Both the position numbers and the translations under genes were made by a program. Positions 2,969-20,221 of a stretch of 23,480 nt of DNA are shown here, piece by piece. The notes beneath the pieces were generated by a model that was given only the letters and a program-made list of their open reading frames with translations, was not told the origin of the DNA and ran no database searches. Positions within the stretch are counted from its first letter, which is position 1, and each line of letters begins with the position of its first letter. Origin of the DNA: a virus; IMG/VR virus record IMGVR_UViG_3300008267_012114, positions 1 through 23,480 of that record. One strand, given 5' to 3'.

Positions 2969-3409
2969 TTAAATCTGAATTTTATATTTCTGTATGAATG
3001 CATCCCGTCGCCGCGGGCTAAATTTACTGTAATCAAAATTAAAACGGATACTTTTTATATTTTCTAAAAGCTCTTTACTCTCTCCAGACGATTCGTTTAA
3101 ACAGTTAAAATCCGAATTATTATAAAACACTATAAAAGGAAAGTATTTGGTCAGAATGTCTAGATATAGTTTTGGAGACTCTGAAGAAACATAAAAAATT
3201 ATATTCCGATCGTTATTGTTTTTAAGTATAGCTTCAGTTATTATTTTGTAATAATGAAACAGTTTAAGTTTCAATTTTTCCTTGCTCTTAAGGGTTTCCT
3301 CTAAAACACCCCACTCCTTTAATTGATTTAAATAATGCTTTTCAGCTAACTGTTGTAAGTCTGTAAAGTCAACTATAATTAAATTAAGAGCAGTTTTGTG
3401 GGAACGCAT
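2969..3409 (-). CDS. Hypothetical protein, about 146 aa
   Basis: No family is recognised. From M at 3409 it reads MRSHKTALNLIIVDFTDL, a first beta strand followed by a charged helix. A second strand, NIIFYVSSES, and a third, FPFIVFYNN, suggest an alpha/beta fold with repeating strand-helix units, perhaps nucleotide-binding-like, but no catalytic motif is clear. The C-terminus is basic (SPRRRDAFIQKYKIQI). Longer in-frame starts exist (ATG at 3436, TTG at 3445) but overlap the upstream nuclease gene by 53-62 bp; the 3409 start gives a 26-bp overlap, matching the largest overlaps elsewhere in the window. Co-transcription with the nuclease is likely. Confidence 0.62.
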   Translation of the reverse strand: MRSHKTALNLIIVDFTDLQQLAEKHYLNQLKEWGVLEETLKSKEKLKLKLFHYYKIITEAILKNNNDRNIIFYVSSESPKLYLDILTKYFPFIVFYNNSDFNCLNESSGESKELLENIKSIRFNFDYSKFSPRRRDAFIQKYKIQI

Positions 3410-3947
3410 CGCAATAGAGTCTATAGTTTTCTTCATTAAGAGCAACTATTGCGTTTTTATTTTTTTCAAAAAAGCCTTCCATTTTAACTATTACATAGCA
3501 CCCAATAGCGGGACTGTCTTTTTTAGTAACCCAATAATTTAAGTGGCTGCCTTCTATATTTAGTTTCTCTTTAATCCCTGCAGGAAAAACCACAAACCCG
3601 CCTTTATGATTAATTTTAAACAATACAAACGGTATTTTTCCTGCTACAGAAGCTTGCTCTATCCAACCATCAAGTTGTTGATTGTTTATAAGTAAACTCT
3701 CAAAATTAAAATCCTTATAAAATTTACCTTCGAGAGTAATATGAGATAAAAATCTAGGTAATATAATATCCCCTGAGGCTAGCAATAGTTGTTCAGGCGT
3801 TAAACTAGCTATGCGGCTTGCATTGAACCCCCCTACAAACGCGCCACTATTAGGCACTCTCTGAAAATTAACTCCATATATAGCAGTAAGATGTTTTGCT
3901 ATTTCTCTTTCCCACGACTTACCTTTGTTCTTACTTGCATTAGCCAT
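3384..3947 (-). CDS. PD-(D/E)XK family endonuclease, Holliday-junction-resolvase-like
   Basis: This 187-residue protein has the layout of a small restriction-fold nuclease: an N-terminal helix with E13 (NKGKSWEREIAKHL), a basic loop FQRVPNSGAFVGG (28-40), D60 in SGDII (58-62), and E73-G-K75 in ITLEGKFYKDF (70-80). E...D...ExK is the PD-(D/E)XK metal-binding signature. Downstream strands FVLFKINHKGGFVVFP (102-117) complete the core. In T4-like phages such nucleases process branched DNA or act in repair; the exact substrate cannot be read here. It follows the gene at 3961-4221 with a 13-bp gap that contains a TAAATA box, and overlaps the next gene downstream. Confidence 0.7.
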   Translation of the reverse strand: MANASKNKGKSWEREIAKHLTAIYGVNFQRVPNSGAFVGGFNASRIASLTPEQLLLASGDIILPRFLSHITLEGKFYKDFNFESLLINNQQLDGWIEQASVAGKIPFVLFKINHKGGFVVFPAGIKEKLNIEGSHLNYWVTKKDSPAIGCYVIVKMEGFFEKNKNAIVALNEENYRLYCDAFPQNCS

Positions 3948-6122: not shown

Positions 6123-6576
6123 AGAAGTGCCTAAAAAGCCTAAGAAGCTAAGCGCATCCGCGCAAGCTAAAAAAATATATTATGTAAACCCTAAAGAATT
6201 TACGGATGAGCTTAAACTTTATTACGAGAGTAATGTTATTACTGATAAGCTTGCGTTGATGATAAAAAACATAGCCTACGGGCTAGCACACGCTCCAAAT
6301 TTTATTAATTATACTTTTAAAGAAGAGGCTATAGGGGATTCTTTAATTAACATGTTTAATGCAATTAAAGAGAAGAAGTACAAATTTGATCGTGGCTTTA
6401 ATCCTTTTTCATACTTTAATTCTATAGCGTTTAATTGTTGGCGTTCTCGTATAAAAAAAGAAAAAAGAATGAGAGACACACTAGCAGCTTATCAAGAAGA
6501 AGTATATAGTATAATCGGGCCGCAAGTTGGTATTGATGACCCGATTAATCCTTTGCATAAAAATAATGACACTTAA
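6076..6576 (+). CDS. 55: Late-transcription RNA polymerase sigma factor gp55
   Basis: gp55 replaces the host sigma factor and recognises the TATAAATA late promoter box. The 166-residue protein has a Lys-rich N-terminus (MKKSKLPKKQ) and the gp55 core: YYVNPKEFTDELKLYYE, then LALMIKNIAYGLAHAPNFINYTF, and the sigma region-2-like helix FNPFSYFNSIAFNCWRSRIKKEKR, which matches the T4 pattern of an NPxxY(F/I) segment followed by RIKKE. I chose the ATG at 6076; an in-frame ATG at 6034 lies deeper in uvsW. The C-terminus (DDPINPLHKNNDT) lacks the hydrophobic clamp-binding tail known from T4 gp55. It overlaps gene 47 by 11 bp. The presence of gp55 supports the late-box calls in this window. Confidence 0.88.
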   Translation: MKKSKLPKKQLPKVYKEVPKKPKKLSASAQAKKIYYVNPKEFTDELKLYYESNVITDKLALMIKNIAYGLAHAPNFINYTFKEEAIGDSLINMFNAIKEKKYKFDRGFNPFSYFNSIAFNCWRSRIKKEKRMRDTLAAYQEEVYSIIGPQVGIDDPINPLHKNNDT

Positions 6577-7624
6577 ATTAAAAAACTCGGAAGTCGGAAT
6601 TTTTTCAGACCCTCATTACGGGGTTCACCGTAACTCGGAAGTATGGCACAAGATTGCATTAGACCACGCTAAATGGGCTAAGGAAGAATTCAAACAACGA
6701 GGAATACAAGATATAATTATACCCGGAGATATTTTTCATGATCGCAACGACATTGCTGTTAACACTCTTCATGTTGCTACTGACATATTCGATATATTAC
6801 GTGACTTCAATATCATTATTACAGTCGGTAATCACGACGCTTATTATCGTGACAACTCTAGCGTTAATTCCGTCTCCATTCTTAGAGGCTGGTCTAATAT
6901 TACTGTTGTTGACGTTCTTCAAGTTGTTGACCTCCAGGGAAAGAAAATAGCTTTTTGCCCTTGGGGGCAAAATATAGAAGAGGTACCAAAATGTGATTTA
7001 ATAGTTGGACATTTTGAAATTAATAGTTTTAAAATGAATACATTTAAGACCTGTACAAACGGTCTTAAATCGAAAGACTTTACGAGCCGAGCCCCCCTTA
7101 CTATTTCCGGACACTTTCACCATAGAGAAGAAAGAAAATATAACGAAGGGACTATACTTTACGTAGGTTGCCCGTACCAGCAAGATTGGGGAGATTTTAA
7201 CACTACTAAAGGTCTTTATATTTTAGATATAGAAACTCTTAAGTACGAGTTTGTTGAAAACAAAATCTCCCCTAGATATAATAAGATTTATTATTCTGAA
7301 ATTTCTTCAGGTAAACTTACAGCGCCGGATATAAAGCAAATTATAGCAGATAACATAGTTAAACTAGTAATAGACCAACGTATTGAGCCAAATGTAGTAG
7401 ATGCCGTTGTACGTAAGTTGGTCTCTGTAAAACCAGTAGAATTTACTATAGATTATGACTATACTGAACTTAGCAAAGTAAATGATGAGCTTGCCAATAC
7501 TAAAAATTTTAGTATTAGCGTTGAAAATTCAATTTCAGAATTTATTGATTTATTGGAGATAAAGGATAAAGATAAGGTGAAGACATACGTCACAGATCTA
7601 TATCATAGAGCACTTAAAATATGA
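6566..7624 (+). CDS. 47: Recombination nuclease subunit gp47 (Mre11/SbcD-like)
   Basis: gp47 with gp46 forms the Mre11/Rad50-type complex that resects DNA ends for recombination-dependent replication and degrades host DNA. From the ATG at 6566 (352 aa; T4 339) all phosphoesterase motifs are present: SDPHYG (D15, H17), GDIFHD (D55, D59), GNHD (88-91), VGHFE (H149) and SGHFHH (H183, H185). A Leu/Lys-rich C-terminal region (about 240-352) would contact gp46. An upstream in-frame ATG at 6527 would add residues lying inside gene 55 that do not resemble the family. In T4 only small ORFs separate genes 47 and 46; here the next gene overlaps by ATGA and begins the sugar cassette. Confidence 0.94.
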   Translation: MTLKLKNSEVGIFSDPHYGVHRNSEVWHKIALDHAKWAKEEFKQRGIQDIIIPGDIFHDRNDIAVNTLHVATDIFDILRDFNIIITVGNHDAYYRDNSSVNSVSILRGWSNITVVDVLQVVDLQGKKIAFCPWGQNIEEVPKCDLIVGHFEINSFKMNTFKTCTNGLKSKDFTSRAPLTISGHFHHREERKYNEGTILYVGCPYQQDWGDFNTTKGLYILDIETLKYEFVENKISPRYNKIYYSEISSGKLTAPDIKQIIADNIVKLVIDQRIEPNVVDAVVRKLVSVKPVEFTIDYDYTELSKVNDELANTKNFSISVENSISEFIDLLEIKDKDKVKTYVTDLYHRALKI

Positions 7625-8415
7625 AAATCGGAGCAGCCATTATCGCATGCGATAGAACAGAATATACTAATAAATGTATAGATAGTTTACTTCTTAATAA
7701 AAGAGACCTGAATGAAATTATTGTAATAAATGACGGTAAGCCTTGGTCTAATAATAAAGAAATTGAAATTATTAATAATACACCTCCCTACCGTACAGTG
7801 GGGGTGGCTAAGAATAACGCAATAAAAGAATTAATTAAAAGAGGTTGTGACCAGTTATTTTTAATTGAAAACGATATAATTATTAAAAGCCCAGAGGTAT
7901 TTAAAACATACATTGAAGCAAGACAGATTACCGGTATAACTCATTTAAATTTCGGTTATCATGGTCCTGCTAATAGAACTCAAGACTATAAATTACCTAA
8001 AGCAAGGTATATAGTGGAGTACCCAAAAAATATTAAAATAGCACTAAATATGCATTCAGTTGGTGCATTTTCTTATTTTGATAAGCGTTACATTGAAGAA
8101 GTAGGGGTGCACGACACATACTTTAAAAATGCCTGGGAGCATGTTGAACTCTGCCAGCGAGGCGTTAAAAAAGGGCTTATACCCGCGTTTTGGTGGTTTC
8201 CAGACGTAGAGGGTAGTAATGAATTGCTAGAAGAGATTCCTGGGTCTATTCAAAATAGTTCTATAACACATACTCAGGAATGGACTGATAATATGAAGAA
8301 AGGCGCTGAATATTACCAAAAACTGCACGGGTGGATACCTATTCATTCACCAGATATGCCTTTGCAGCTAGTACTAGATAACCTCAAGGTAATTTATAAA
8401 AAATATAAACTATGA
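7621..8415 (+). CDS. Glycosyltransferase family 2-like (GT-A fold)
   Basis: A 264-residue putative inverting glycosyltransferase. It opens with the GT-A nucleotide-binding strand MKIGAAIIACDR and an INDGK motif (36-40), then GVAKNNAIKE (61-70), the usual GT2 N/A-rich helix, and an FLIENDIII strand (80-88) in which END stands where the metal-binding DxD is normally found. Later elements include HSVGAFSYFDKRYIEEVG and AWEHVELCQRG, matching the acceptor-side (E/D)xxxxxR region of GT2 enzymes. No membrane segment is seen, so it is probably soluble and acts in the infected cell. Donor and acceptor cannot be predicted. It overlaps gene 47 and the next gene by ATGA. Confidence 0.78.
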   Translation: MKIGAAIIACDRTEYTNKCIDSLLLNKRDLNEIIVINDGKPWSNNKEIEIINNTPPYRTVGVAKNNAIKELIKRGCDQLFLIENDIIIKSPEVFKTYIEARQITGITHLNFGYHGPANRTQDYKLPKARYIVEYPKNIKIALNMHSVGAFSYFDKRYIEEVGVHDTYFKNAWEHVELCQRGVKKGLIPAFWWFPDVEGSNELLEEIPGSIQNSSITHTQEWTDNMKKGAEYYQKLHGWIPIHSPDMPLQLVLDNLKVIYKKYKL

Positions 8416-9218
8416 TAACTTTTTCTCGTTTAGGACGCTACGGTAACCTAGGCAATTCTATGTTTCAATTAGCAGCAACCTTAGGTATAGCTGCTAAATT
8501 AAATTATTCCGTAAAATTTCCACGGAACCCTACGTACTTTGATACTAACTATAATTGTAATAATATTTCTTTATTTGATGGTTTTGAAATAGATAACCCA
8601 GTGTTAGTAAACGAGGACTACGCAGCAATAAAAAACCATTACACTGAACCGCATTTTCATTACGACCCTAATGCTTTTAATATATCAGATAATACCGATA
8701 TTGCTGGTTACTTTCAAAGCGAAAAGTATTTTAGTCATGCAAGAGACATAGTTACAAAAGCTTTTACTTTTAAAAAAGAGTATATTGAAAAAGGTAATTC
8801 ATTATTTAGCAAATACTCTATCTCGCCACATGAAACTACTTCTTTGCACGTCAGAAGAGGAGATTATGTAGTTAAACAGGTATACCACCCTCTTCAAGAA
8901 AATGCCTACTATGAAGCAGCGTTTAAAAAAGCAAAGCTTAAAAATGTATTGGTTTTTTCAGATGATATAGAGTGGTGTAAACAAAACATAGTAGGTAATA
9001 ATATATTCTATAGTGATACTAATAACTCTTTTGCCGATATGTATGCTATGTCTTTATGTAAGAATAATATTATTGTTAATAGTACTTTTGGCTGGTGGGG
9101 AGCGTGGTTAAATAGCCATACAGACAAAGTAGTGGTTGCACCAAGTAAATGGTTTGGACCGGCTTACAGTAATGTTGTTACTACAGATATAATACCCTCT
9201 CAATGGACAATAATATGA
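8412..9218 (+). CDS. GT11 alpha-1,2-fucosyltransferase-like glycosyltransferase
   Basis: GT11 enzymes transfer L-fucose, or in some O-antigen clusters colitose, from the GDP-sugar. This 268-residue protein carries the family motifs in order: GRYGNLGNSMFQLA (8-21), IAGYFQSEKYF (97-107), the HVRRGDY signature (146-152, GDP-binding), VFSDDIEWCKQN (181-192), and NSTFGWWGAWLN (223-234). Length is typical of bacterial GT11 (about 270-300). With the GDP-fucose-synthase-like enzyme and the GT10-like protein in the same operon, GDP-fucose or GDP-colitose as donor is a strong inference. No signal peptide or membrane segment is visible. Confidence 0.9.
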   Translation: MITFSRLGRYGNLGNSMFQLAATLGIAAKLNYSVKFPRNPTYFDTNYNCNNISLFDGFEIDNPVLVNEDYAAIKNHYTEPHFHYDPNAFNISDNTDIAGYFQSEKYFSHARDIVTKAFTFKKEYIEKGNSLFSKYSISPHETTSLHVRRGDYVVKQVYHPLQENAYYEAAFKKAKLKNVLVFSDDIEWCKQNIVGNNIFYSDTNNSFADMYAMSLCKNNIIVNSTFGWWGAWLNSHTDKVVVAPSKWFGPAYSNVVTTDIIPSQWTII

Positions 9219-10024
9219 TAAAAATTTCGTTAAAAGACCGCTCTTTCAGTCATTGCATTTTTAGTAATAATCCCTTACCGCCTACGTCTTTTGCAAAATA
9301 CATAGAGTGGGACAGAGAAACTATAAACAATAATACTGTTTATACAGATCTTTGTATCAATGAGGCGCCAAACGGGGCAACAGTATGGCTAATAGAGCCT
9401 AGAGAATTAATTGCAGGTATATATGAGTTTGTAGAAAAAAACGCAGCAAAATATAAAAGCATCTGGACCCACGATAAAGACATTTTAAATAAATTTAGTA
9501 ATGCAGTGTTCGTACCCCTCGGGGGGTGCTGGATAAAAGAAGAAGATAGAAAAATCTACGAAAAAACAAAAAACTTTTCTATAATAGCTTCTTCTAAACA
9601 GCATCTACCTGGACATAGATTAAGACACGAACTTATAAAAGCAGCAGAAAATCATATAGATGTTTACGGAAACGGGTATACCTATATACCCTACAAATTA
9701 GACGGTTTGAAAGATTATAGGTACCACTTTACTATAGAAAATACTAAGAGAGATTTTTGGTTTACAGAAAAACTTATCGATTGTTTACAGACCGGTACAA
9801 TGCCTATATATTGGGGATGCCCTTCCATAAGTAAATATTTCAATTTAGAAGGCTTTATTATCTTTAATGAACTTTCTGAACTCAAAGAAAAACTTAAGCT
9901 TTGTACACCCCAATACTATGAAAGTAAGAAAGATGCTATAAAAGAAAACTTTGAACTCTCTAAAAAATTTATTTTAGCAGAAGACTGGTTATACGAAAAT
10001 GATATTTATATCACACAGAGGTAA
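9215..10024 (+). CDS. GT10-like (alpha-1,3/4-fucosyltransferase superfamily) glycosyltransferase
   Basis: The C-terminal half holds the GT10 donor-binding signature: YHFTIENTKRDFWFTEKL (170-187, with the ENxxxxx(Y/F)xTEK pattern) followed by GTMPIYWG (194-201). In GT10 the Glu-Asn and Lys residues bind GDP-fucose. The N-terminal half (1-120) is divergent but contains ATVWLIEPRELI and IWTHDKDIL, compatible with a GT-B acceptor domain. I place the start at 9215 because it gives the ATGA overlap with the previous stop (9216-9218); an ATG four codons earlier also exists. Together with the upstream GT11 gene, it suggests two successive deoxysugar additions. Confidence 0.78.
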   Translation: MIKISLKDRSFSHCIFSNNPLPPTSFAKYIEWDRETINNNTVYTDLCINEAPNGATVWLIEPRELIAGIYEFVEKNAAKYKSIWTHDKDILNKFSNAVFVPLGGCWIKEEDRKIYEKTKNFSIIASSKQHLPGHRLRHELIKAAENHIDVYGNGYTYIPYKLDGLKDYRYHFTIENTKRDFWFTEKLIDCLQTGTMPIYWGCPSISKYFNLEGFIIFNELSELKEKLKLCTPQYYESKKDAIKENFELSKKFILAEDWLYENDIYITQR

Positions 10025-10469
10025 TTTAGAAGGTAAAAGCTTACTAGAAAATCATCCCGACCGAATCAATTATTGTTTAGACCAGGGCTTTGATGTTGAA
10101 ATAGACGTTTGGTGTAACGATGGAGATTTTTTTCTCGGTCATGATTACGGTCAGTACAAAATTAAGTTTGAATTTTTATTAAACAAAAAACTTTGGGTAC
10201 ATTGCAAAAACGTTGCAGCTTTAGCAGCCTTAAAGGGGCCGTTTTATAATATTAATTGTTTTTTTATAGATAAAGATGACTGTGTACTGACTAGCAAAGG
10301 TAATATATGGCTCAGCCCTACTTATAAAAAATCTTTTAAAAATGCTATTTGCGTAATGCCTGAAGACCCTAGGTGGGAATTTCAAACGAAAGAACTTCTA
10401 GATTTTAGTGGAATTTGTACAGATAACATATACCATTACACGCGCTATGTTACTGATCTTAGACGTTGA
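9999..10469 (+). CDS. GDPD/PI-PLC-like phosphodiesterase, short form
   Basis: The N-terminus matches glycerophosphodiester phosphodiesterases: SHRGNLEG (5-12, with H6 and R7), ENHPDRI (17-23), FDVEIDVW (31-38, metal ligands E34 and D36), then FLGHD (45-49, catalytic H48). These are the GDPD active-site His, Glu, Asp and His. At 156 residues it lacks much of the usual 240-300-residue barrel, though strands LWVHCKNV and CFFIDKDD are recognisable. Short proteins of this kind can occur in polysaccharide clusters. A phosphodiester-containing sugar or glycerol phosphate is a possible substrate, but this is inference. It overlaps its neighbours by 26 and 23 bp. Confidence 0.72.
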   Translation: MIFISHRGNLEGKSLLENHPDRINYCLDQGFDVEIDVWCNDGDFFLGHDYGQYKIKFEFLLNKKLWVHCKNVAALAALKGPFYNINCFFIDKDDCVLTSKGNIWLSPTYKKSFKNAICVMPEDPRWEFQTKELLDFSGICTDNIYHYTRYVTDLRR

Positions 10470-10968
10470 CGGGGTACTCACAGACGGTAAAAAATATTAT
10501 GATAAAACCGGGAAAGCAGTACTAAAGACATTTTGCGACAGAGACTTTACCGCAATTAAAAAATTTAAAGCAGCTGGTTGGCATGTTGTTTTTTTATCTG
10601 GAGACTCGAATGTAAATGAAGCAGTCGCTAAAAACCGCAATATACCATTTTACTGTAACCGCGTTAACGGGGAAATGATAAATAAAGTAAAGTTTTTAGA
10701 TCGACTCTGCAAAGAATTTAAAACTGATATAAACAACACGGGTTATATTGGGGATGATATTTTTGATATAGATATACTTAAAGCAGTGAAGTGGCCGTTT
10801 TGCCCAGCTAACGCGGACAGCGCTGTAAAGAAAATAGCTATAAATTTAAACGCCAAAAGCGGGGAATGTTGTATTTCTGAGTTGCACGATTTTTTTAGTA
10901 GTTCAAATCTGGTTAAGCCGGTAACGCTGGAACAAATAGAAGCTTTAGATCGGAATGAACGCTTTTGA
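10447..10968 (+). CDS. KdsC-like HAD phosphatase (C0 type)
   Basis: KdsC-type enzymes dephosphorylate 3-deoxyoctulosonate 8-phosphate or related nonulosonate phosphates. The 173-residue protein begins directly at the catalytic strand MLLILDVDGVLTDG (D6 nucleophile, D8 acid/base), followed by FLSGDSN (49-55, motif II), a Lys at about 80-82, and GYIGDDIFDIDIL (99-111, motif IV with D103, D104, D107). The C-terminal segment SGECCISEL aligns with the KdsC tail GGxGAVRE. The absence of a cap domain agrees with the C0 family. An upstream ATG at 10408 would add 13 residues inside the previous gene and is less likely. No KdsA or CMP-Kdo synthetase is visible, so the substrate may be a different sugar phosphate. 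Confidence 0.82.
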   Translation: MLLILDVDGVLTDGKKYYDKTGKAVLKTFCDRDFTAIKKFKAAGWHVVFLSGDSNVNEAVAKNRNIPFYCNRVNGEMINKVKFLDRLCKEFKTDINNTGYIGDDIFDIDILKAVKWPFCPANADSAVKKIAINLNAKSGECCISELHDFFSSSNLVKPVTLEQIEALDRNERF

Positions 10969-11632
10969 TATAGCCATTTATGGTCATTTGAGTTTTGATA
11001 ACATATATCAAGGCTTTAATTATAAGACCTCTGTAGGTTGCATGGGTAATGTTTGGAATCATTTAAAATACATAAATCCAGATTTAAAGGTAAAATTAGA
11101 ACCAACCGATATAGGCGAATCTCTAGTAATAGTAGACGTAGAACATAATAAACGCACTAGTATATCCCGTTTATCTTTAAAAACTAACAAACCTACTATA
11201 CATAACGCAAACGTGAGCCATATAATGTATTTGAATGAATTATCCGATTATAGCTTTATAAAAGATATAAAAGGGTATGTAGTAGCAGATACATGTAATG
11301 GAAAGCCTTTACGGCTCAATTCAAGTGTATTAGAGAATATTGATTTATTATTAATTTCTGAAGAAGACCTGACTGTAAATGTTTTAGATATAGCTTCTTT
11401 AGTAAGAGGGCATGTTTTGGTGCATTACCCAGCTGGTAGTACCCTATATTATAAAGATATTCAACTAACCCCTTTTCAAGCAGAATTTGTATCAGGTATA
11501 AATGTATTAGGGGCGGGGGATAAACTAGCATCGTACATTCTTGCCGGTCTGGACAATTACCACAGTCTAGATAAAGTAATACAACAGGCTCATAATAGCT
11601 TGACTGATTACTTTAAAAATGAAAAAATATAA
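10955..11632 (+). CDS. Short PfkB/ribokinase-family sugar kinase
   Basis: A 225-residue protein with the landmarks of a PfkB carbohydrate kinase: an opening strand with IYGHLSFDNI (8-17), a GCMGNVWNHLKY segment (28-39, the GGxxxNvA substrate-binding motif), central ADTCNGKP (111-118, the D-x-N-x region), LLLISEEDL (131-139), and NVLGAGDKLASYILAG (183-198) with the GAGD anion hole and catalytic Asp189. Family members are usually about 300 residues; the lid region appears reduced. The neighbours (KdsC-like phosphatase, nucleotidyltransferase-isomerase fusion) suggest it phosphorylates a sugar before nucleotide activation, as HldE does for heptose, but heptose itself is only one option. Confidence 0.8.
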   Translation: MNAFDIAIYGHLSFDNIYQGFNYKTSVGCMGNVWNHLKYINPDLKVKLEPTDIGESLVIVDVEHNKRTSISRLSLKTNKPTIHNANVSHIMYLNELSDYSFIKDIKGYVVADTCNGKPLRLNSSVLENIDLLLISEEDLTVNVLDIASLVRGHVLVHYPAGSTLYYKDIQLTPFQAEFVSGINVLGAGDKLASYILAGLDNYHSLDKVIQQAHNSLTDYFKNEKI

Positions 11633-12788
11633 TCTTTTAGTTCCGCTTGCTGGAAGAGGTCAACGCTTTGTTGACGAGGGGTATGTAGTGCCCAAATACA
11701 TGATTACAGCCCGAGATAAGCATCTGATCGACTGGGCACTTAGTTCAATTGACACCCATGAGTGTAATCTTATTTTCTGTTTACGGCAGGACCACATAAA
11801 TAATTTCGGAGTAGATGAAATATTTCGCAAAAAATTTGGCGAAAATATAAAAATAGTAATAATAGATAAAATTACTGACGGTAGTGTTTCGACATGTTTA
11901 TTAGCTAAAGAATATATAGATAACGAGTTACCGCTTTATATCTATACAGTTGATGTGTATTTTCAGAAACGATTTAAGCCTCATTCAATGGAAGGCACGT
12001 CAGGGCAAGTATTAACCTTTAAAAGTAATAATCCAGCATATAGTTATGTCAAGACAGATAACCAAGGAAACGCTATACTAACAGCAGAAAAAGAAGTTAT
12101 TAGTAATAATGCATGCGTAGGGGTTTATGGATTCGCAACAGGAAAATTGTTTGTAGAGTATGCGCAAAAAATGATTGCAATGAATTTGCGCACACGTAAT
12201 GAATTTTATATTACCCCGTTATATAACTTAATGATACAGGATAACTGTAAGATTAATATACAGGAAGTAGAACGCATGTACATTATGGGTACACCTGAAG
12301 AATATAAATTCTTTACTACCCGGGTGTTAAACCCATTTGCATTAAAGCCTATTGCTTTAGTGAGCGATCACAGCGGTTATAAACTTAAAGAAGAAGCTAA
12401 GGAAGTAATAATTGCACACGGCTTAAAATATATAGACTTAGGTTGCTATACAGATAAAGATTGCGACCAATTTGATTATGTATCCCAAGCTATAACTTTT
12501 ATTAAAAATGGTACGTGCAGCCACGCAATAGGATTTTGTTGTACCGGGCAAGCAGTCAATATAGCCGCAAATAAAACTGATGGTATAAGAGCAGCACTAA
12601 TTTATGATGCGTATAGTGCTGAATACGCTATAAAGCATAATTGTTGTAACTTTTTTTCTATTCCGTCAAGAATAACCACTAGTTCTGATCTTAGCCAGTA
12701 TCTAAGTCTATGGCTATCTACGGACTTTGAGGGTGGTAGACACTGTGCGAGAATACAAAAAATAGAAAACAGCTATGGACGTCTATAA
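11619..12788 (+). CDS. Bifunctional protein: sugar nucleotidyltransferase fused to RpiB/LacAB-type isomerase
   Basis: Two domains share one continuous 389-residue frame. Residues 1-235 form a sugar-phosphate nucleotidyltransferase: LVPLAGRGQRF (7-17, nucleotide-binding G-rich loop), VPKYMI (24-29, K26), TVDVYF (110-115), and a closing EVERMYIMGTPEEYK. Residues 245-389 match ribose-5-phosphate isomerase B/LacAB: ALVSDHSGYKLKEEA (246-260), IGFCCTGQAVNIAANK (304-319, C307 at the catalytic Cys position and T309-G310 of the anion hole), GIRAALIYDAYSAEYA (322-337), KHN (339-341) and FEGGRH (370-375). RpiB proteins are normally stand-alone at about 150 residues. The fusion implies that isomerisation and nucleotide activation act on the same sugar phosphate. 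I know of no characterised protein with this architecture. Confidence 0.85.
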   Translation: MKKYNLLVPLAGRGQRFVDEGYVVPKYMITARDKHLIDWALSSIDTHECNLIFCLRQDHINNFGVDEIFRKKFGENIKIVIIDKITDGSVSTCLLAKEYIDNELPLYIYTVDVYFQKRFKPHSMEGTSGQVLTFKSNNPAYSYVKTDNQGNAILTAEKEVISNNACVGVYGFATGKLFVEYAQKMIAMNLRTRNEFYITPLYNLMIQDNCKINIQEVERMYIMGTPEEYKFFTTRVLNPFALKPIALVSDHSGYKLKEEAKEVIIAHGLKYIDLGCYTDKDCDQFDYVSQAITFIKNGTCSHAIGFCCTGQAVNIAANKTDGIRAALIYDAYSAEYAIKHNCCNFFSIPSRITTSSDLSQYLSLWLSTDFEGGRHCARIQKIENSYGRL

Positions 12789-13095
12789 TATAAAAAATTT
12801 CACCAATGGATGGTTTATAGGAGATTTTGCTCCGGCGGTTTTTAAAAACTGTTTTTTTGAAGTAGCGCATCATAAGCATAAAAAGGGCTACATTGGGCAG
12901 TTACACTTTCACAAAATAGCTACAGAAGTTACCTATATAGTTAAAGGCAAACTTATAGCAGACGGTAAGACCTTATCAGATGGTGATATGTTTGTATATA
13001 GTCCAAAAGAAATCTCTAATGTACAGTTTTTAGAAGATACCGACCTTATCGTAATTAAATGGCCCTCAGTACCTTCTGACAAATACAATGTATAA
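12775..13095 (+). CDS. Cupin-domain protein
   Basis: A 106-residue single-domain cupin. Motif 1 is readable as GQLHFHKIATEVTYIVKG (41-58: H44, H46, E51, G58), the G(x)nHxH...E...G metal-binding pattern, followed by LSDGDMFVYSPKEI (67-80), the turn into motif 2, though the second motif's His is not evident. It overlaps the fusion gene by 14 bp and the methyltransferase gene by 8 bp. Small cupins in nucleotide-sugar clusters can be epimerases or isomerases, or sense a ligand; which applies here cannot be decided. The C-terminus (WPSVPSDKYNV) matches no characterised motif I know. Confidence 0.75.
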   Translation: MDVYNIKNFTNGWFIGDFAPAVFKNCFFEVAHHKHKKGYIGQLHFHKIATEVTYIVKGKLIADGKTLSDGDMFVYSPKEISNVQFLEDTDLIVIKWPSVPSDKYNV

Positions 13096-13741
13096 TAACG
13101 ATTATAGTAGATATGTCACTTGGGTTGAAACAACTTTGAAAGGTATTAAAGCATACCCCCAACTTTCTAATGGTCTCGGTCAGTACGATTCTCCTATTCA
13201 AATTTGCGAAAAATTTATTAATATTATTAAAGATGTAACAGGTAACAGGCAATTTTCAGACGCTAACAAAAAAACCATAGTAAAATTACTTAAAAATAAC
13301 CCACAAATAAAATGTATTGTAGAAATTGGTACAGCTAGTTCTTATACAGATAGTTCTACTCAAACGTTTATACAATATAAATCCCCTGATACGCTTTTTA
13401 TTACTATAGATATTGATAATAAATCTGCAGCACTAGGAAGTAACTCTTTAAGGGAAAAAATATTAGTATTACAAAGCGACTCAGTAAATGTCGACCTTAA
13501 GAAGCATTTTACCAATGCTAGTATAGATTTACTTTTTATAGACGGGGATCACAGTGTAGATAGAGTTTTTAAGGAGTACGAATTTTATTTACCCCTTATG
13601 AGTAAAAATGGAATAATTGTGTTGCACGATACCACGTTGCACCCGGGTCCATATTTGTTTATGGAAGCAGTAGATGAAAATGTTTACAAAAAAGAAAAAC
13701 TACATCTAAACGATTACGGATTGGGTATTATTTATTTATAA
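13088..13741 (+). CDS. Class I SAM-dependent methyltransferase (Methyltransf_24/CmcI-like)
   Basis: A 217-residue protein with the Rossmann-type methyltransferase layout: CIVEIGTASSYTDSS (76-90, motif I glycine loop, although E-I-G-T lacks the full GxGxG), LFITIDIDN (103-111, motif II acidic residue D108 or D110), VLQSDSV (127-133), LLFIDGDHSVD (148-158, motif IV) and IIVLHDTTLHPGP (176-188). IDGDHS followed by hDxxxH is typical of the CmcI/Methyltransf_24 group, which often methylates sugars in polysaccharide and antibiotic clusters; metal-assisted O-methylation using D152/H155 is possible. In this operon it most likely modifies the glycan product. Confidence 0.83.
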   Translation: MYNNDYSRYVTWVETTLKGIKAYPQLSNGLGQYDSPIQICEKFINIIKDVTGNRQFSDANKKTIVKLLKNNPQIKCIVEIGTASSYTDSSTQTFIQYKSPDTLFITIDIDNKSAALGSNSLREKILVLQSDSVNVDLKKHFTNASIDLLFIDGDHSVDRVFKEYEFYLPLMSKNGIIVLHDTTLHPGPYLFMEAVDENVYKKEKLHLNDYGLGIIYL

Positions 13742-14397
13742 TGAAAAAAGCTATTTCATTTTCAGGTCAGTGTCGTTTTGTAAAAGAGGGTATTAAATCT
13801 CTTAAACGTAATTTACACGATTTTGAAAATTATGATATCTTTATACATGCCTGGGACGGTCCCTTAGCTAAAGATTGTGAAATTTATAAGCCTAAAAAAT
13901 TAAAAATTGAACCTCAGAAAAACGTAATACCTAATATTGTAAAAGAATATACCCCGGCTCATTTCGTGCATTTTAGTATGTTTTATACTATGAAAGAAAG
14001 CTTAGACCTAAAAAGCGAGTATGAAAAGGAACACGGTTTTAAGTATGATTTAGTTATAAGAACTCGTTTTGATATAAGCCTAGAAACATATATTTCCCCT
14101 GAACATTATAATTTAAGGGCTGGGGTATACTCACCAGATGTTTGTGTAAACCCAGCAGTTATATCAGATTGGTTTAATTTTTCTGATTCTAAAACAATTG
14201 ATTTATATAAAAATATCTACGGCAATATAGTTAACTACCATAAACAAGGGGTTATGATAACCTCAGGGGAAGAAATAATAACTCATATGTTAAAAACCGA
14301 AAATATTTCTATAAATAAAATATTTTGCGCCCTCTACCTCTTAAGAGATCGAGGTATACACTCTCAACTTTCTACGTACTGGAAATATGCAAACTAA
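13741..14397 (+). CDS. Putative GT-A-like polysaccharide biosynthesis protein (WavE-like)
   Basis: This 218-residue protein begins ISFSGQCRFVKEGIKSLKRNL (5-25), has YDIFIHAWDG (31-40) and then YDLVIRTRFDI (102-112). The pattern of SGQ-R, DxFxHxW and R(T/A)RFD is known from lipopolysaccharide-associated proteins such as the WavE-type family, where RxRxD may replace the DxD of a GT-A glycosyltransferase. No metal site or catalytic base can be assigned with certainty, and there is no membrane segment. Its position among glycan genes supports a transferase role. The start overlaps the preceding stop by one base (TAATG). Confidence 0.6.
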   Translation: MKKAISFSGQCRFVKEGIKSLKRNLHDFENYDIFIHAWDGPLAKDCEIYKPKKLKIEPQKNVIPNIVKEYTPAHFVHFSMFYTMKESLDLKSEYEKEHGFKYDLVIRTRFDISLETYISPEHYNLRAGVYSPDVCVNPAVISDWFNFSDSKTIDLYKNIYGNIVNYHKQGVMITSGEEIITHMLKTENISINKIFCALYLLRDRGIHSQLSTYWKYAN

Positions 14398-15319
14398 AAT
14401 TTTAGTAACTGGGGGTACTGGAATGGTTGGCCGACATTTAAAGGATCTAGGTCTGCAAGCAATATATGCAAGTAGTAAGATGTGTGATTTAACTGATTCG
14501 AGTCAAGTAAAAGATTTTTTTGAAGCTACAAGGCCTAATATAGTTGTACATTTAGCTGCTAAAGTCGGGGGTATAATGGATAATATTAAAAACCCGGTTG
14601 GTTTTTTTGAAGATAATGTCCTTATCAATACTAACGTGGTAAAATATGCTAAACAATACGGCTGCACCCGGTTTATAGGTATATTAAGTACTTGTATATA
14701 CCCTGATAAGCTTGATGATAGTCTTTACCCCCTTAAAGAGGAGACTCTACATATCGGCCCCCCAACCCAGACTAATTTTTCTTACGGATACGCAAAACGA
14801 TGTTTGGCAGTACAGCTAGAATGTTACAGAAAGCAGCATTTATCGTTTTATAGTAGTATTATACCGTGTAATTTATATTCTGAATATGATCACTTCGAAG
14901 GAGATAAATCCCATTTTGTAACAAGTTTAATTCGTAAAATTTATGAAGCAAAAACAATAAATGCTCCCTCTATACAGCTATTTGGCACAGGAACCCCGTT
15001 GAGACAATTTATGTATGCTGAAGATTTAGCTAGAGCGATTATTGATTATATATATAAAGGAATATATGCAGACTTAAATGTAGCTACAGACGAAGTATAC
15101 ACGATTAAGCAAATAGCGGAAATAGCTCTAGACGCTTGCGATGCTAAGCATTTAACTATAAATTGGGATATTAGCAAGCCTGATGGTCAGTACAGAAAAG
15201 ACGTATCTGATGCATTATTTAAAAAACATTTACCAGGCTTTAAATATACCACCTTAAAAGATGGCATAAAAAAGACTTACGATAATTATTCACATGGCCT
15301 GGCTATTAAACGAATCTAA
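14387..15319 (+). CDS. fcl: GDP-L-fucose synthase-like epimerase/reductase (Fcl/WcaG; or ColC)
   Basis: Fcl turns GDP-4-keto-6-deoxymannose into GDP-L-fucose through 3,5-epimerisation and NADPH reduction. The 310-residue SDR protein has TGGTGMVGRHL (8-18, NADP loop), HLAAKVGGIMDN (55-66), LSTCIYPD (100-107, S101 and C103), YGYAK (133-137, catalytic Tyr133 and Lys137), IIPCNLYSEYDHF (158-170) and SH (175-176, His176). Cys103 and His176 are the epimerase acid/base pair of WcaG. Length matches the family (about 310-320). The adjacent ColD-like gene means this could equally be the related GDP-colitose synthase ColC. No GDP-mannose 4,6-dehydratase lies in the window, so the substrate must come from the host or elsewhere in the genome. 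Confidence 0.87.
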   Translation: MQTKILVTGGTGMVGRHLKDLGLQAIYASSKMCDLTDSSQVKDFFEATRPNIVVHLAAKVGGIMDNIKNPVGFFEDNVLINTNVVKYAKQYGCTRFIGILSTCIYPDKLDDSLYPLKEETLHIGPPTQTNFSYGYAKRCLAVQLECYRKQHLSFYSSIIPCNLYSEYDHFEGDKSHFVTSLIRKIYEAKTINAPSIQLFGTGTPLRQFMYAEDLARAIIDYIYKGIYADLNVATDEVYTIKQIAEIALDACDAKHLTINWDISKPDGQYRKDVSDALFKKHLPGFKYTTLKDGIKKTYDNYSHGLAIKRI

Positions 15320-16436
15320 TTTTACCTGGAAAGACCGCTTAAAAATTTGTTCTTTTTTTCTTAATAAAGAAAAATTTTGGACAATGACAGATGAGGTTGC
15401 TAAGTTCGAAGAGAAGATGGCTCAGTATACTGGTACGAAGTATGCTGTATTCGTTTCAAGCGGGTCAACGGCAAATACATTACTTGCCATGTATCTTAAA
15501 GATCAGTTAAAAGATTCGGTAAAAAACACTATAGTATTTCCGTCTACTACTTGGATAACATCAGTATCTCCATTTTTACGGGAAGGTTTTATACCGCAAT
15601 TTATAGATATTACTCTAGATTCTTTAAGTCTAGATTTAGATAAACTAGAAAATTATTTAAAAGATAATAAGCATAAAGTAGCCTGTGTTTTTATTACATC
15701 TTTACTGGGTTTTAGTCCCAATATAGATAGATTAAAATATCTTAGAAAAAAATACCAGGTAAAGATAATGTTAGATAATTGTGAAAGTACATTTACAAAA
15801 TGGAACGGTCGTAATATTTCTTCATACTTTACATCTACAACGAGTACATACTTTGGTCATTTGCTTCAAAGTGTAGAAGGTGGTTTTATTTTTACAAACA
15901 GTCAATATGAATACGAGTATTTTATTATGGCTCGTAATCACGGTATGACACGAGGATTAACAAATAATAAAGAATACTACTTAAACAAACAAGTAGACTC
16001 TCGTTTCGACTTCAACATATTGGGTAATAATTTTAGAAATACTAATATAAACGCTTTTATAGGGCAGTTAGATTTTGAAAGAATTTCTGAATATACCGAT
16101 AAAAGATGCTTATTATATGATATATTTCATAGTCTTTGTCAAGAGAGCTCAACAGTTACTACTTTTCCTAGAAAATTTGAAGATGTACCGTTTTGTCTGC
16201 CGTTCGTACTCCCTACCATACAAGATAGACATAGAGTGCAAGAGTACTGCCAAAAATTAAACATCGAAACAAGACCGATAGTTTCAGGCAATCTTTTGCG
16301 TCAAACTAGCCTTAAAAAATACGGAAACCCAGAAGAATTTGAAAATAGTGATATATTGCATCATAATGGTCTGTATGTAGGTTTACATAGTAGAGTAAAA
16401 GAAACTGATATTAAAAAACTAGCCAGACAATTATGA
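15294..16436 (+). CDS. ColD-like PLP-dependent sugar 3-dehydratase (DegT/DnrJ/EryC1 fold, Lys replaced by His)
   Basis: A 380-residue DegT-family protein. The aspartate that pairs with the PLP pyridine is seen in LDNCEST (160-166). At the position where aminotransferases have the PLP-binding Lys there is His189 (TYFGHLLQSVEGG, 185-197). ColD (GDP-4-keto-6-deoxymannose 3-dehydratase) and the E1 dehydratase RfbH share this Lys-to-His change, and ColD's His is known to make it a dehydratase rather than a transaminase. Further ColD-like segments are SSGSTANTLL (55-64), ARNHGMTRGL (213-222), RPIVSGN and HHNGLYVGLH. It overlaps the Fcl-like gene by 26 bp. Together the two enzymes could make GDP-colitose. 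Confidence 0.83.
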   Translation: MAWLLNESNFTWKDRLKICSFFLNKEKFWTMTDEVAKFEEKMAQYTGTKYAVFVSSGSTANTLLAMYLKDQLKDSVKNTIVFPSTTWITSVSPFLREGFIPQFIDITLDSLSLDLDKLENYLKDNKHKVACVFITSLLGFSPNIDRLKYLRKKYQVKIMLDNCESTFTKWNGRNISSYFTSTTSTYFGHLLQSVEGGFIFTNSQYEYEYFIMARNHGMTRGLTNNKEYYLNKQVDSRFDFNILGNNFRNTNINAFIGQLDFERISEYTDKRCLLYDIFHSLCQESSTVTTFPRKFEDVPFCLPFVLPTIQDRHRVQEYCQKLNIETRPIVSGNLLRQTSLKKYGNPEEFENSDILHHNGLYVGLHSRVKETDIKKLARQL

Positions 16437-17188
16437 AACACGATTTAACTGATATTACTTTCACTATACCAGTCAGAATAGATAGCCAACAAAGATACAA
16501 TAATTTAAGTTATATTTTAGCTTATCTTAAGCATAATTTTAATACTAATATTATTGTGTACGAAAACGGCCCGGTTCAAAAAGTATCCCTAGATAGTAGT
16601 ATAAATTACACTTTTACCAAAAATAACAGCTCTTTTCATCGTACTAAGTATCTTAATGACATGGCAAAAGTAGTAAAAACTACTTTTATAGCGAACTACG
16701 ACTGCGATGTGTTTTTTCCGGTTAAACAGATATTAAAAGCTTACTCGTTATTAAAAGATAATAAAATAGATTTTATTTACCCCTATGACGGGCTGTTTGT
16801 TAATATTGGTAGAGAATTTATAGATAGAGAAGTAAAAGACTATGACCCGGTTAATTTAAACCCAGAAGGCCTTCCTAATTTTGGAAGAAGTTCTATGGGA
16901 GGCGCTTTACTTTGGAACAAAAACGCGTTTATGCAAGGGGGTATGGAAAATGAAAAATTCGTATCGTGGGGCTGCGAAGACTGGGAAAGGTACCACAGGT
17001 TTACTAAGCTTAGCTATCGGGTCGGTAGAATAAAAGGACCGCTGTATCATATTGACCACGCTCGTACTCAAGAAAGTAATGAAACTAATCCTTTTTATCA
17101 GCAAAATTTAATTGAATTTCAAAAAATTGATAAAATGAATGTGGATCAGTTAAAAGAGTATATAAAAACTTGGCCTTGGCTTTGCTAA
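16433..17188 (+). CDS. Glycosyltransferase, GT2/galactosyltransferase-C-like
   Basis: A 251-residue GT-A protein. It shows FTIPVRIDSQQRYNNL (10-25) at the N-terminus, the metal-binding DCD (90-92) within FIANYDCDVFF, and an acceptor region SMGGALLWNKNAFMQGGMENE (154-174) followed by WGCEDWERYHR (179-189). The GGAL...F...GG.NE...WG.ED...R pattern is that of the galactosyltransferase family C-terminal domain, where the ED pair holds the catalytic base. It is the last gene of the sugar cassette, overlapping the ColD-like gene by ATGA and ending 21 bp before gene 46. Donor sugar unknown; galactose or N-acetylgalactosamine would fit the family. Confidence 0.8.
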   Translation: MKHDLTDITFTIPVRIDSQQRYNNLSYILAYLKHNFNTNIIVYENGPVQKVSLDSSINYTFTKNNSSFHRTKYLNDMAKVVKTTFIANYDCDVFFPVKQILKAYSLLKDNKIDFIYPYDGLFVNIGREFIDREVKDYDPVNLNPEGLPNFGRSSMGGALLWNKNAFMQGGMENEKFVSWGCEDWERYHRFTKLSYRVGRIKGPLYHIDHARTQESNETNPFYQQNLIEFQKIDKMNVDQLKEYIKTWPWLC

Positions 17189-17209: not shown

Positions 17210-19033
17210 ATGCGGTATATTCATTTTAAGAGGCTTAAGGCGTCTAATTTTCTTTCAATAGGTAAAAAGTCCGTAGAAGTATCATTTAGACCGGGTCTCA
17301 ATATCATTACTGGCCGCAATTTCGATAAGGCAGATCGAGCCAATGGGGTAGGCAAATCAACTATAGCTGATGCAATGCATTTTGCATTGTATGGTAGTTC
17401 TATTAGAGATTTAAAGAAAGAAAATATAGTCAATGATCAAGCCCCGGATAGTTTATGTGAAGTAGAGCTGGAATTTGTTTGTGTTCAAAACGATACCCAA
17501 ACTAATTATAAGATTGTAAGAACACTTAATCCAACTAAGTGCTTTCTTTTCATGAATGACCAGGACATAACACGTTCTGGAGTACCACAGACTACTGAAC
17601 TAATAACTAGTATTATTAAGACTTCTTCTGAAGTATTTCAAAATAGCGTTGTAATGACGATTAATAATACTGTGCCGTTTATGGCGCAAAAAAAAGTAGA
17701 AAAGCGCAAATTTATTGAAGGTATTTTAGGTTTAGAAGTGTTCGGCAATATGCTTCTTTTTGTACGTCATGATTATAACGAAAACAAACGTAATCTGGAT
17801 GTTGAAACAACTAAATTTGATGAAATTAATAGGTCCCTACAAGACAATATTAAGCAGAAAGAACTTTACGATGTTAACAAGCAAAAACGCATGGATATTC
17901 TTAAGAACCGGCAAACTAATAATACAGATGAACTTGCCACCCTTAAGAAAAAACTTGATAAACTAGATCCGGTTGATGAAGATGCAAAAGAAAAGATAGA
18001 AAAAGAAATTAAGGCTTTAAACGGAGCCGAAAAAGTTTTGTCTGAAAAAATTACTGAAATTGAAAAAATAATTACAGTTGCAAGTACTCATATTAAAATC
18101 AGTACAGAGCGTCTTAAGAAATTAAAAAAAGTTGATAGTAAGTGCCCCCATTGCGGTAAAGATTTAGCTGAAGCTGCTAATCTTCAGTATGAAAAAGAAC
18201 AAAATGAGTGCGGAAAAGAAATAGAAAAATATAAAGAATCCTTAAAAATAAATGAACCTAGACTTAAGGAGCTAAATGAAAAGAATAATAAAATTGAAGA
18301 TGCTATACAAAAGATGCGCATTAAGCAGAGCGAATTTGCTTTGCGTAAAAAAGAAGTAGAAAATATTAATACTAGAATTAATCAGCTAGAAGGATGGCAG
18401 CAGCAATTAATTATAGATATAGATAATTTAAATAAAGACTCTAACGATTTTGAAAAAATTATAGGAGAAATTAATACCCGGGTTGAAGAAGTAAAAACCA
18501 TTATAAAATCATTACAGACTCAAATAGAAATTATTGAAAATGCAAAATTAATAGTTTCTGAAGAAGGGGTAAAATCTTATATAGTTAAAAAAATCATCGA
18601 AGTACTTAATACGAGACTTGCATACTATCTTAAAAAGCTTGAGAGTAACAGTATAGTTCGTTTTAATGAATATTTCGAAGAGATTATTACTAACGAACGC
18701 GGTAAAGAATGTAGTTATTTTAATTTCTCTGGCGCTGAACGTAAGGCTATAGATCTAGCTATGTTATTTACATTTCAAGATATACGACGCGCCCAAGCGG
18801 ATGTTTGTCTTAATCTATCTATGTTTGACGAGCTTTTTGATTCATCATTAGATGAAAAAGGCATCGAGCTTGTACTTGATATTCTTAGAGATAGAGTAGA
18901 TAACTATAATGAAGCTATTTATATTATCTCTCACCGTAAAGAAAGTATGAAATATTGTATCGGTGGAGAAATAGTATATCTTGAAAAGAAAAACGGCATA
19001 ACCACAAGAACTACAAACTATGATGTATCCTAA
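17210..19033 (+). CDS. 46: Recombination nuclease ATPase subunit gp46 (Rad50/SbcC-like)
   Basis: gp46 is the ABC-type ATPase partner of gp47. The 607-residue protein (T4 560) has an N-terminal ATPase half with RANGVGKST (Walker A, 43-51, K49), a Q-loop-like EVFQNSVVM (141-149), a long coiled coil (about 190-305), the zinc hook CPHC (312-315), a returning coiled coil (about 322-450), and a C-terminal half with the signature FSGAERKAIDLA (506-517), Walker B LSMFDELFD (536-544) and the switch His in IISHR (572-576). All catalytic elements are intact. It is separated from its partner gene 47 by the whole sugar cassette. The next gene's ATG overlaps its 3' end by 14 bp. Confidence 0.94.
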   Translation: MRYIHFKRLKASNFLSIGKKSVEVSFRPGLNIITGRNFDKADRANGVGKSTIADAMHFALYGSSIRDLKKENIVNDQAPDSLCEVELEFVCVQNDTQTNYKIVRTLNPTKCFLFMNDQDITRSGVPQTTELITSIIKTSSEVFQNSVVMTINNTVPFMAQKKVEKRKFIEGILGLEVFGNMLLFVRHDYNENKRNLDVETTKFDEINRSLQDNIKQKELYDVNKQKRMDILKNRQTNNTDELATLKKKLDKLDPVDEDAKEKIEKEIKALNGAEKVLSEKITEIEKIITVASTHIKISTERLKKLKKVDSKCPHCGKDLAEAANLQYEKEQNECGKEIEKYKESLKINEPRLKELNEKNNKIEDAIQKMRIKQSEFALRKKEVENINTRINQLEGWQQQLIIDIDNLNKDSNDFEKIIGEINTRVEEVKTIIKSLQTQIEIIENAKLIVSEEGVKSYIVKKIIEVLNTRLAYYLKKLESNSIVRFNEYFEEIITNERGKECSYFNFSGAERKAIDLAMLFTFQDIRRAQADVCLNLSMFDELFDSSLDEKGIELVLDILRDRVDNYNEAIYIISHRKESMKYCIGGEIVYLEKKNGITTRTTNYDVS

Positions 19034-20189
19034 TTTTAACGGAATAATTGGAGCCCCGGCATTTCCAACTGGTATGCCTGTTATTGGCTCTCCTTTAGCT
19101 GGCCCTGTACAACCTAAGATGGATGTTTCAGGTTCTCTGCCTACTCACAGGGCATTGAGTTATGCTGCAGATCACCAAGGCTGTGGTTTTTGGAGAATAC
19201 ACTGGCCGGAAAGTATTATAAACGGCAATCAATTAGGAATTATTAGTAATAATAATTTTATGATATTGCAGGAGAATTTTTATCAAGGCATCAAGAGCGT
19301 TCGTATACAACGACAGGTAACACCCACGCAATTGCAATTTGTAAGATTTTTAAGAGAGCTTTCAAACAAAACTAATAATTTTAAACTTTATTACGAAATC
19401 GACGATGTTATCTTTTCTGATGATATTCCGATTTACAATAAAGCTAGAGAAGCATTTACTGACCCTGCTATAGCGGCAACTGCTATAGAGATTATGAAGC
19501 TCTGCGACGCAATAACTACACCTACTAAGTATATGTCAGAGTATTATACAGCTAAAACCGGGGTAAAAAGTATAACGATCCCTAACTACATGCCTAAGTT
19601 CTGGATGGATAGATACTATAATAAGGAAAAAATAGTTAATAACTACGAAAAAAATAAAAAAAGACCAAGAGTGGGATATGTAGGTAGCCCGACGCATTTT
19701 AATATAGGAAACGTACCCGGGGCTAAAGATGATTTTGCCGATGTACTCAAAGTTATAATTAAAACTATTAAAGACTTTAAATGGGTCATTATGGGCGGGT
19801 TACCTGCAGAGTTAATAAGTTACGTGAGAGAAGGACATATTGAATATAAGCCGTGGGCTAGAATATACGATTACCCGCAAGTTTATAATGATTTAAATCT
19901 TAATATTGCCATTGCACCGCTTCAAAATAACCCCTTCAATCTTGCAAAAGCTAATATAAAATACATAGAAGCCGGGGCCTTAGGGGTGCCTTGTATTTGC
20001 CAAGATCTAGAGCCTTATAAATGCGCGTCTCACCGCTTTAACACAGGGGACGAACTTATAGATCAAATTAAAAAAGTAACATCTGATCGTAGACGCTATT
20101 TAACTGAGTCGGACAATGTTCGCAAATTTGCCTGCGAATATTGGCTTGAAGATCATATAAATGAGTTTGCACAGCTATATTTTGCTTGA
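19020..20189 (+). CDS. GT-B glycosyltransferase (GT4-like) embedded in the replication module
   Basis: A 389-residue putative glycosyltransferase. Residues 1-45 are Pro/Gly-rich and atypical. The core has LYYEIDDVIFSDD (123-135), a strand-turn common in phage and spore-coat GT4-like enzymes, then RVGYVGSPTHF (at about 216-226, opening the C-terminal nucleotide-sugar domain), WVIMGG, and NLAKANIKYIEAGALGVPCICQD (about 309-331), the K...E...G.P element that binds the donor in GT-B enzymes. It lies between gp46 and the DNA polymerase, not in the sugar cassette, which raises the possibility that it glucosylates a modified DNA base. A structural-protein or lipid acceptor is equally open. Two adjacent ATGs (19020, 19023) can serve as starts. 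Confidence 0.75.
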   Translation: MMYPNFNGIIGAPAFPTGMPVIGSPLAGPVQPKMDVSGSLPTHRALSYAADHQGCGFWRIHWPESIINGNQLGIISNNNFMILQENFYQGIKSVRIQRQVTPTQLQFVRFLRELSNKTNNFKLYYEIDDVIFSDDIPIYNKAREAFTDPAIAATAIEIMKLCDAITTPTKYMSEYYTAKTGVKSITIPNYMPKFWMDRYYNKEKIVNNYEKNKKRPRVGYVGSPTHFNIGNVPGAKDDFADVLKVIIKTIKDFKWVIMGGLPAELISYVREGHIEYKPWARIYDYPQVYNDLNLNIAIAPLQNNPFNLAKANIKYIEAGALGVPCICQDLEPYKCASHRFNTGDELIDQIKKVTSDRRRYLTESDNVRKFACEYWLEDHINEFAQLYFA

Positions 20190-20199
20190 TAAAAAAGTA

Positions 20200-20221
20200 A
20201 GGCCATACGACAATATGGCTT
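20200..20221 (+). promoter_or_regulatory. Hairpin directly upstream of the DNA polymerase start: candidate autogenous translational operator
   Basis: AGGCCATA (20200-20207) pairs with TATGGCTT (20214-20221) in RNA, giving eight pairs including one G-U, with a six-base loop CGACAA. The stem ends at the base before the polymerase AUG (20222). The 5' arm includes AGG of the only Shine-Dalgarno-like sequence (TAAGG, 20198-20202). T4 and RB69 gp43 repress their own translation by binding a hairpin at this very place, so a similar operator is plausible. The gap of 32 bp before the gene is itself unusual in this compact operon. Confidence 0.55.

Follow-up and report, generated by a model that had tools for sequence, protein, structure and literature searches.

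The GDP-L-colitose pathway of Escherichia coli O55/O111-type O-antigens comprises GDP-mannose 4,6-dehydratase (GMD), ColD and ColC, the last being a homologue of GDP-L-fucose synthase; colitose and L-fucose are both O-antigen sugars. The enzymes of the nucleoside diphosphate (NDP)-heptose pathway are GmhA, HldE and GmhB. Virion glycosylation, with a glycan on a capsid or tail protein, occurs in mycobacteriophages. Cyanophages and pelagimyophages carry glycan clusters of the lipopolysaccharide (LPS) type, in which glycosyltransferases are accompanied by epimerases, cupins, PfkB kinases and nucleotidyltransferases (PMC7824862; PMC7029224). The virus record IMGVR_UViG_3300008267_012114 (IMG/VR), whose entire 23,480 bases form the window analysed here and which belongs to a T4-like aquatic phage, carries 13 open reading frames (ORFs), genes A to M, on a single strand at positions 7621-17188, between the genes for the two subunits of the recombination nuclease, gp47 and gp46. 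Comparison with related phages identifies the 47-46 interval as an old, resident, lineage-specific glycan locus with modules exchanged in blocks, not a chance insertion.

Both border genes are intact: gp47 (6566..7624, +; SbcD-like nuclease subunit; phrog_100 E 2.4e-67, PF00149) on the left and gp46 (17210..19033, +; SbcC-like nuclease subunit; phrog_77 E 1.6e-86) on the right. Within the cassette, each gene overlaps the next by 1-26 nt; gp47 and gene A share 4 nt, and the distance from gene M to the start of gp46 is 21 nt. An earlier note on this DNA had described 13 overlapping sugar genes between genes 47 and 46 with the borders intact, and the ORFs, their strand and both complete border genes were verified. 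The left junction is real and no assembly error, because an independent contig (L001) is 100% identical to the window across it, from the lysozyme gene, past gp47 and gene A, to a point within gene B; the junction of gene M with gp46 was seen again in many independent contigs. Homologues of the whole T4-like core cluster uvsY-uvsW-55-47-46-43 are present, in order. Early or middle expression of the cassette, as the note had proposed, is plausible in view of the gene overlaps. Counts of internal promoters and terminators were the same as in shuffled sequences, and the late-promoter-like motifs TATAAATA and CTAAATA did not exceed shuffles in frequency. Three CTAAATA motifs are clustered at 1352-1402, where an ORF (993-1346, -) and the lysozyme gene (from 1378, +) diverge; these are possible late promoters, but the total of the motif in the window is no higher than in shuffles.

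Relatives of gp47 led to 70 loci and the fusion protein encoded by gene G to 14 more; 46 of the loci span the whole interval and 27 of these are distinct, the window counted. In the 46 spanning loci the interval measures 3.2-10.6 kb, is never empty and always contains glycosyltransferase-like genes. None of the intervals examined lacks a relative of gene A, and gene M often comes last. In the most distant relatives (L065; gp47 about 40% identical) the interval, read from the sequences with no library run, is still full of glycosyltransferase-like and methyltransferase-like genes. Outside the lineage, T4 has two small ORFs between gp47 and gp46 (46.1 and 46.2), in line with the earlier statement that only small ORFs lie there in T4; P-HM2 has one and C48C1 none. 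Seven T4-like records, Bellamy, SynMITS9220M01 and five others, carry the sugar-activation module elsewhere, and their gp47 and gp46 either overlap or are at most ~320 bases apart. Three features mark the locus as resident, with exchangeable modules: the lineage shows no empty interval, the gene A relative is constant and gene M is often last. The idea of an accessory hotspot is supported, since the content varies blockwise and the site is empty or nearly so outside the lineage, but within the lineage it is always occupied. Local rearrangement is indicated in three close core relatives (L007, L008, L009), whose GT11-like and GT7C-like genes have the opposite orientation to the other genes of the interval.

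Across the 27 distinct loci, genes D, E, F, G, H and J are all-or-none, with at least four state changes on the gp47 tree, and so are genes K and L, with at least two. Between the window and L071 the identity is 93% for K, 90% for L and 89% for G, but 73% for gp47 and 71% for gp46. Between the window and L008, where D-H are missing, gp47 and gp46 are 85% and 80% identical, but K and L 71% and 63%. Since K and L are otherwise less conserved than the core (58% vs 77% for gp47 in L073), these discordant identities point to recombination between phages. High turnover of content between relatives is also what speaks for a recent host-derived insertion of little function at a site merely tolerant of DNA. 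That account is already disfavoured and is considered very unlikely: the cassette has the GC and GC3 of the phage core, with no foreign base composition seen, its blocks move as units, other phages carry nearly the entire set at another place, the activation module is without a cellular homologue in the collections searched, and both reading frames and catalytic residues have been preserved. As to flanking direct or inverted repeats as marks of insertion, just short, degenerate ones at chance level were found; neither a tRNA integration site nor a structured RNA was found.

The cassette had been read as one full deoxysugar pathway; genes D to H instead resemble a separate sugar-phosphate activation module. 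Gene E (10447..10968, +) encodes a KdsC-like HAD sugar phosphatase (profile A3 against 2p9j, E 6e-26, and against KdsC structures; TIGR01670 E 5e-21, below the cut-off of the model), whereas the GmhB model gave just E 9e-4. Gene F (10955..11632, +) encodes a compact PfkB/ribokinase-family kinase with a GAGD motif (profile against 3h49, E 2e-5; AF2 pLDDT 91; best Foldseek match ribokinase 1vm7, E 3e-11). The product of gene G (11619..12788, +) is an RmlA-type nucleotidyltransferase (residues ~1-238) fused to an RpiB-type isomerase (~240-389; PF02502 E 1.5e-35), with structure matches to 4evw (E 1e-29) and 1o1x (E 3e-33). The RpiB-type motifs are kept in nearly all copies (DHSG 72/72, HN histidine 72/72, GGRH 70/72), and the Cys-x-Thr-Gly loop reads FCxTG in 60/72. 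Arg, Tyr or Cys stands where E. coli RpiB has Gly, and the isomerase substrate of G may therefore differ. In L013/L083, gene G appears as two tblastn pieces in different frames, owing to a frameshift or a sequencing error. Gene H (12775..13095, +) encodes a small cupin with an HxH...E metal motif (invariant H44, H46 and E51 in alignment A4; KdgF/cupin structures at E ~1e-3). Gene D (9999..10469, +) encodes a short protein with a putative GDPD-like phosphodiesterase fold, an assignment less secure than those of E-H: the HRG, EN, EID and GHD residues are kept (H6, R7, E17, N18, E34, D36 and H48 invariant in alignment A7), the PDB match 7e0v is weak, and the AF2 model (pLDDT 92.7) finds the GDPD structure 2o55 as best Foldseek match (E 1e-3, TMq 0.57).

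The module has in common with the NDP-heptose pathway that an isomerase, a PfkB kinase, a HAD phosphatase and a nucleotidyltransferase occur in one set. It differs in that the isomerase is RpiB-type instead of the SIS-type GmhA, the phosphatase is KdsC-like instead of GmhB, and the nucleotidyltransferase is RmlA-type and fused to the isomerase; kinase F has the same PfkB fold and is predicted to act at C1. The module would thus work like the NDP-heptose pathway without being a member of it, three of the four activities coming from other families. On the model of that pathway, the RpiB half of G would turn a ketose-phosphate into an aldose-phosphate, after which kinase F would phosphorylate C1, phosphatase E would strip the distal phosphate, the nucleotidyltransferase half of G would form an NDP-sugar, and cupin H may epimerise it; genes D and J lie close to the E-F-G-H set.

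Of the 88 viral loci that a scan with F turned up, 80 were retained. All 80 have E, G is fused in all 73 loci covering both halves, and E-F-G-H stand in the same order across ~80 viral loci, with adjacent genes mostly overlapping by 1-14 nt. The only phage records with F are Bellamy and SynMITS9220M01, which share E-F-G-H(-J) with the window and differ from it in address, gp47 and gp46 being adjacent there. Two peptide patterns, which pick up 62/71 viral copies, were used for a motif scan of ~85,000 genomes of bacteria and archaea and found no cellular copy of the fused protein G. The sole match (L090; PACT01000001.1, 15,998 bases) is filed under a Crocinitomicaceae genome assembly, carries GMD-ColD-ColC and E-F-G-H in a single run and has a 15,998-base match in IMG/VR, the viral contig L158; viral sequence has here probably been binned with a bacterial genome. 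F was found in 0/295 other genomes of the same phylum and on no plasmid. A bacterial origin of the module was rejected on these three counts. Compared with the cyanophage and pelagimyophage clusters, the nucleotidyltransferase of the window is RmlA-type and theirs HIGH-type, and the available portions of those reports do not spell out a nucleotidyltransferase-RpiB fusion or a fixed four-gene order (PMC7824862; PMC7029224). A bolder proposal, held only tentatively and thought rather less probable than its opposite, is that E-F-G-H form a virus-specific sugar-nucleotide pathway without cellular counterpart, making an NDP-sugar not known from bacteria, and that phages of several lineages exchange this pathway to mark their own particles or the host surface.

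Genes K and L form the second block. Gene L (15294..16436, +) encodes a ColD-like 3-dehydratase with His189 in place of the pyridoxal phosphate (PLP)-binding Lys; its best structure match, ColD (2gms, E 2e-38), leaves genuine sugar aminotransferases such as perosamine synthetase (1e-13) far behind. The His aligns with the residue altered in the ColD variant 3b8x and is invariant in all ColD-like relatives reaching that position. Given the replacement of Lys by His and the match to ColD, the reading of L as an aminotransferase of the perosamine type was rejected. Gene K (14387..15319, +), always paired with L, encodes a GDP-L-fucose-synthase/ColC-like epimerase-reductase (4b8w E 2e-61; NF047922 E 4.5e-59, below cut-off). 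K itself is the sole PF16363 match in those relatives that have K-L; GMD is present in L090 and L119-L126, close to ColD where ColD occurs. Judged by sequence, the likely product is GDP-L-colitose, made by L and then K from host-supplied GDP-4-keto-6-deoxymannose, with L-fucose as the alternative. The likeness to the E. coli O55/O111 pathway lies in the ColD-like enzyme with its diagnostic His, the adjoining reductase and the GT11 and GT10 transferases; unlike that pathway, the set is phage-borne and without GMD, and its candidate ColC cannot be separated from GDP-fucose synthase because the two are homologues. Of the full deoxysugar pathway claimed earlier, what is supported is a ColC/ColD-type 3,6-dideoxy-sugar branch that would work on a host intermediate, with no 4,6-dehydratase in the window.

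The remaining cassette genes encode transferases. Gene A (7621..8415, +) encodes a GT2-like glycosyltransferase (phrog_2456 E 4e-18; PF00535 weak), and genes B (8412..9218, +; GT11; PF01531 E 1e-22, phrog_2644 E 1e-72) and C (9203..10024, +; GT10; PF00852 E 6e-7) encode members of the two fucosyltransferase families, which could use colitose or fucose. Gene J (13741..14397, +), which co-segregates with D-H, encodes a DUF7796-like, probable glycosyltransferase (PF25072 E 2e-5, below cut-off; phrog_13607 E 1.5e-21), and gene M (16433..17188, +) a GT7C-type glycosyltransferase (PF02709 E 2e-7; phrog_15655 E 4e-55). Gene I (13088..13741, +), a S-adenosylmethionine (SAM) methyltransferase gene (PF13578 E 1e-11, PF04989 E 1e-7), occurs in few relatives. 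A further gene, N (19020..20189, +; GT4-like glycosyltransferase; phrog_7162 E 1e-23), lies between gp46 and gp43 and is retained in every relative whose sequence reaches that position. The clamp and clamp-loader genes, which stand between 46 and 43 in T4, are absent from this stretch of the window (19020-20222).

The cassette is also portable. Five loci (L120, L122-L124, L126) carry M, B, C, K, ColD, GMD, D, E, F, G, H and J together, mostly with A, and neither gp47 nor gp46 lies in the stretch retrieved; in L124, the longest such record (47 kb), gp46 and gp47 are adjacent and at least ~16 kb from the sugar gene set. Because nearly the whole set travels together away from gp47 and gp46, this suggests that the cassette genes serve one product. 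As a whole, the locus is read as a resident modular unit of activation module, dideoxy branch and glycosyltransferases whose product is placed on a virion protein, a reading given roughly even confidence. Gene content and order, family membership, catalytic residues, co-segregation and portability are established by the data, whereas the order of the reactions, the identity of the sugar, the acceptor and the timing are inferred. At least five soluble glycosyltransferases (A, B, C, J and M, with N beyond gp46) would assemble an oligosaccharide, to which B and C would add fucose-like (colitose) residues and I would act as an occasional O-methyltransferase; the completed oligosaccharide would be put on the virion protein in the cytoplasm. 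By hydropathy, no cassette protein has a membrane-spanning segment, and no initiating transferase, flippase or polymerase was found among them, which makes a soluble acceptor the simplest. The chances that the acceptor is cytoplasmic, most simply a virion protein, are put at about even; among acceptors a virion protein would be the likeliest, the host O-chain next and DNA the least likely.

Several points weigh against this reading. GMD is absent from the 120 kb relative as well as from the window, K is not distinguishable by sequence from a plain GDP-L-fucose synthase, the roles assigned to D and H are guesses, and the published interpretation favoured for similar cyanophage and pelagimyophage clusters is modification of the host O-chain (PMC7824862; PMC7029224). 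The same enzymes would then build the glycan on host lipid-linked intermediates, altering the host O-chain or capsule during infection and blocking other phages. Close relatives differ in content, as expected if it is matched to hosts, and the occurrence of colitose and L-fucose in O-antigens points the same way. With the initiating transferase, flippase, polymerase and any membrane protein missing from the cassette, the host machinery would have to be borrowed, and modification of the host surface is judged a credible possibility that falls short of probable.

Decoration of phage DNA, comparable to the glucosylation of hydroxymethylcytosine in T4, is suggested by the site in the replication-recombination cluster and by T4 a-gt, likewise a sugar-transfer gene in an early cluster, which adjoins gene 47. 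Unlike the single a-gt, the cassette has many enzymes and other glycosyltransferase families, none of its transferases matches the T-even DNA glucosyltransferases, and no hydroxymethylcytosine synthesis gene was found in the fragmentary relatives: PF00303 (thymidylate-synthase/dCMP-hydroxymethylase) had no match over cut-off in 13 related records of at most 123 kb, all possibly fragments, those of 120 and 123 kb included. Of the virion, the DNA and the host surface, which the earlier note had named as possible targets of the coat, DNA is thereby weakened and is considered very unlikely.

Other genes of the window include a QueD-like gene at 497-955 (-; phrog_2389); QueC-family genes occur in 6/7 long relatives. 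A TGT-family match was not found, and DpdA may be too divergent for the TGT model used. A 7-deazaguanine chemistry in the lineage, separate from the sugar cassette, is possible. A gene for a RusA-like Holliday junction resolvase (phrog_244) lies near the recombination genes on the opposite strand (3384-3947, -).

Phage glycan clusters are already known; new are the fixed gp47-gp46 address, the ColC/ColD prediction and the fused, apparently virus-only activation module. The locus shows that interchangeable glycan pathways can dock at a fixed site within a conserved replication-recombination operon. From phage genes, a sugar of the colitose type (3,6-dideoxy) is predicted, and a widespread viral sugar-activation module comes to light for which no cellular home was found. 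If its product is indeed a virus-only sugar, phage glycans could be traced by means of it, and the question of what they protect against could be approached.

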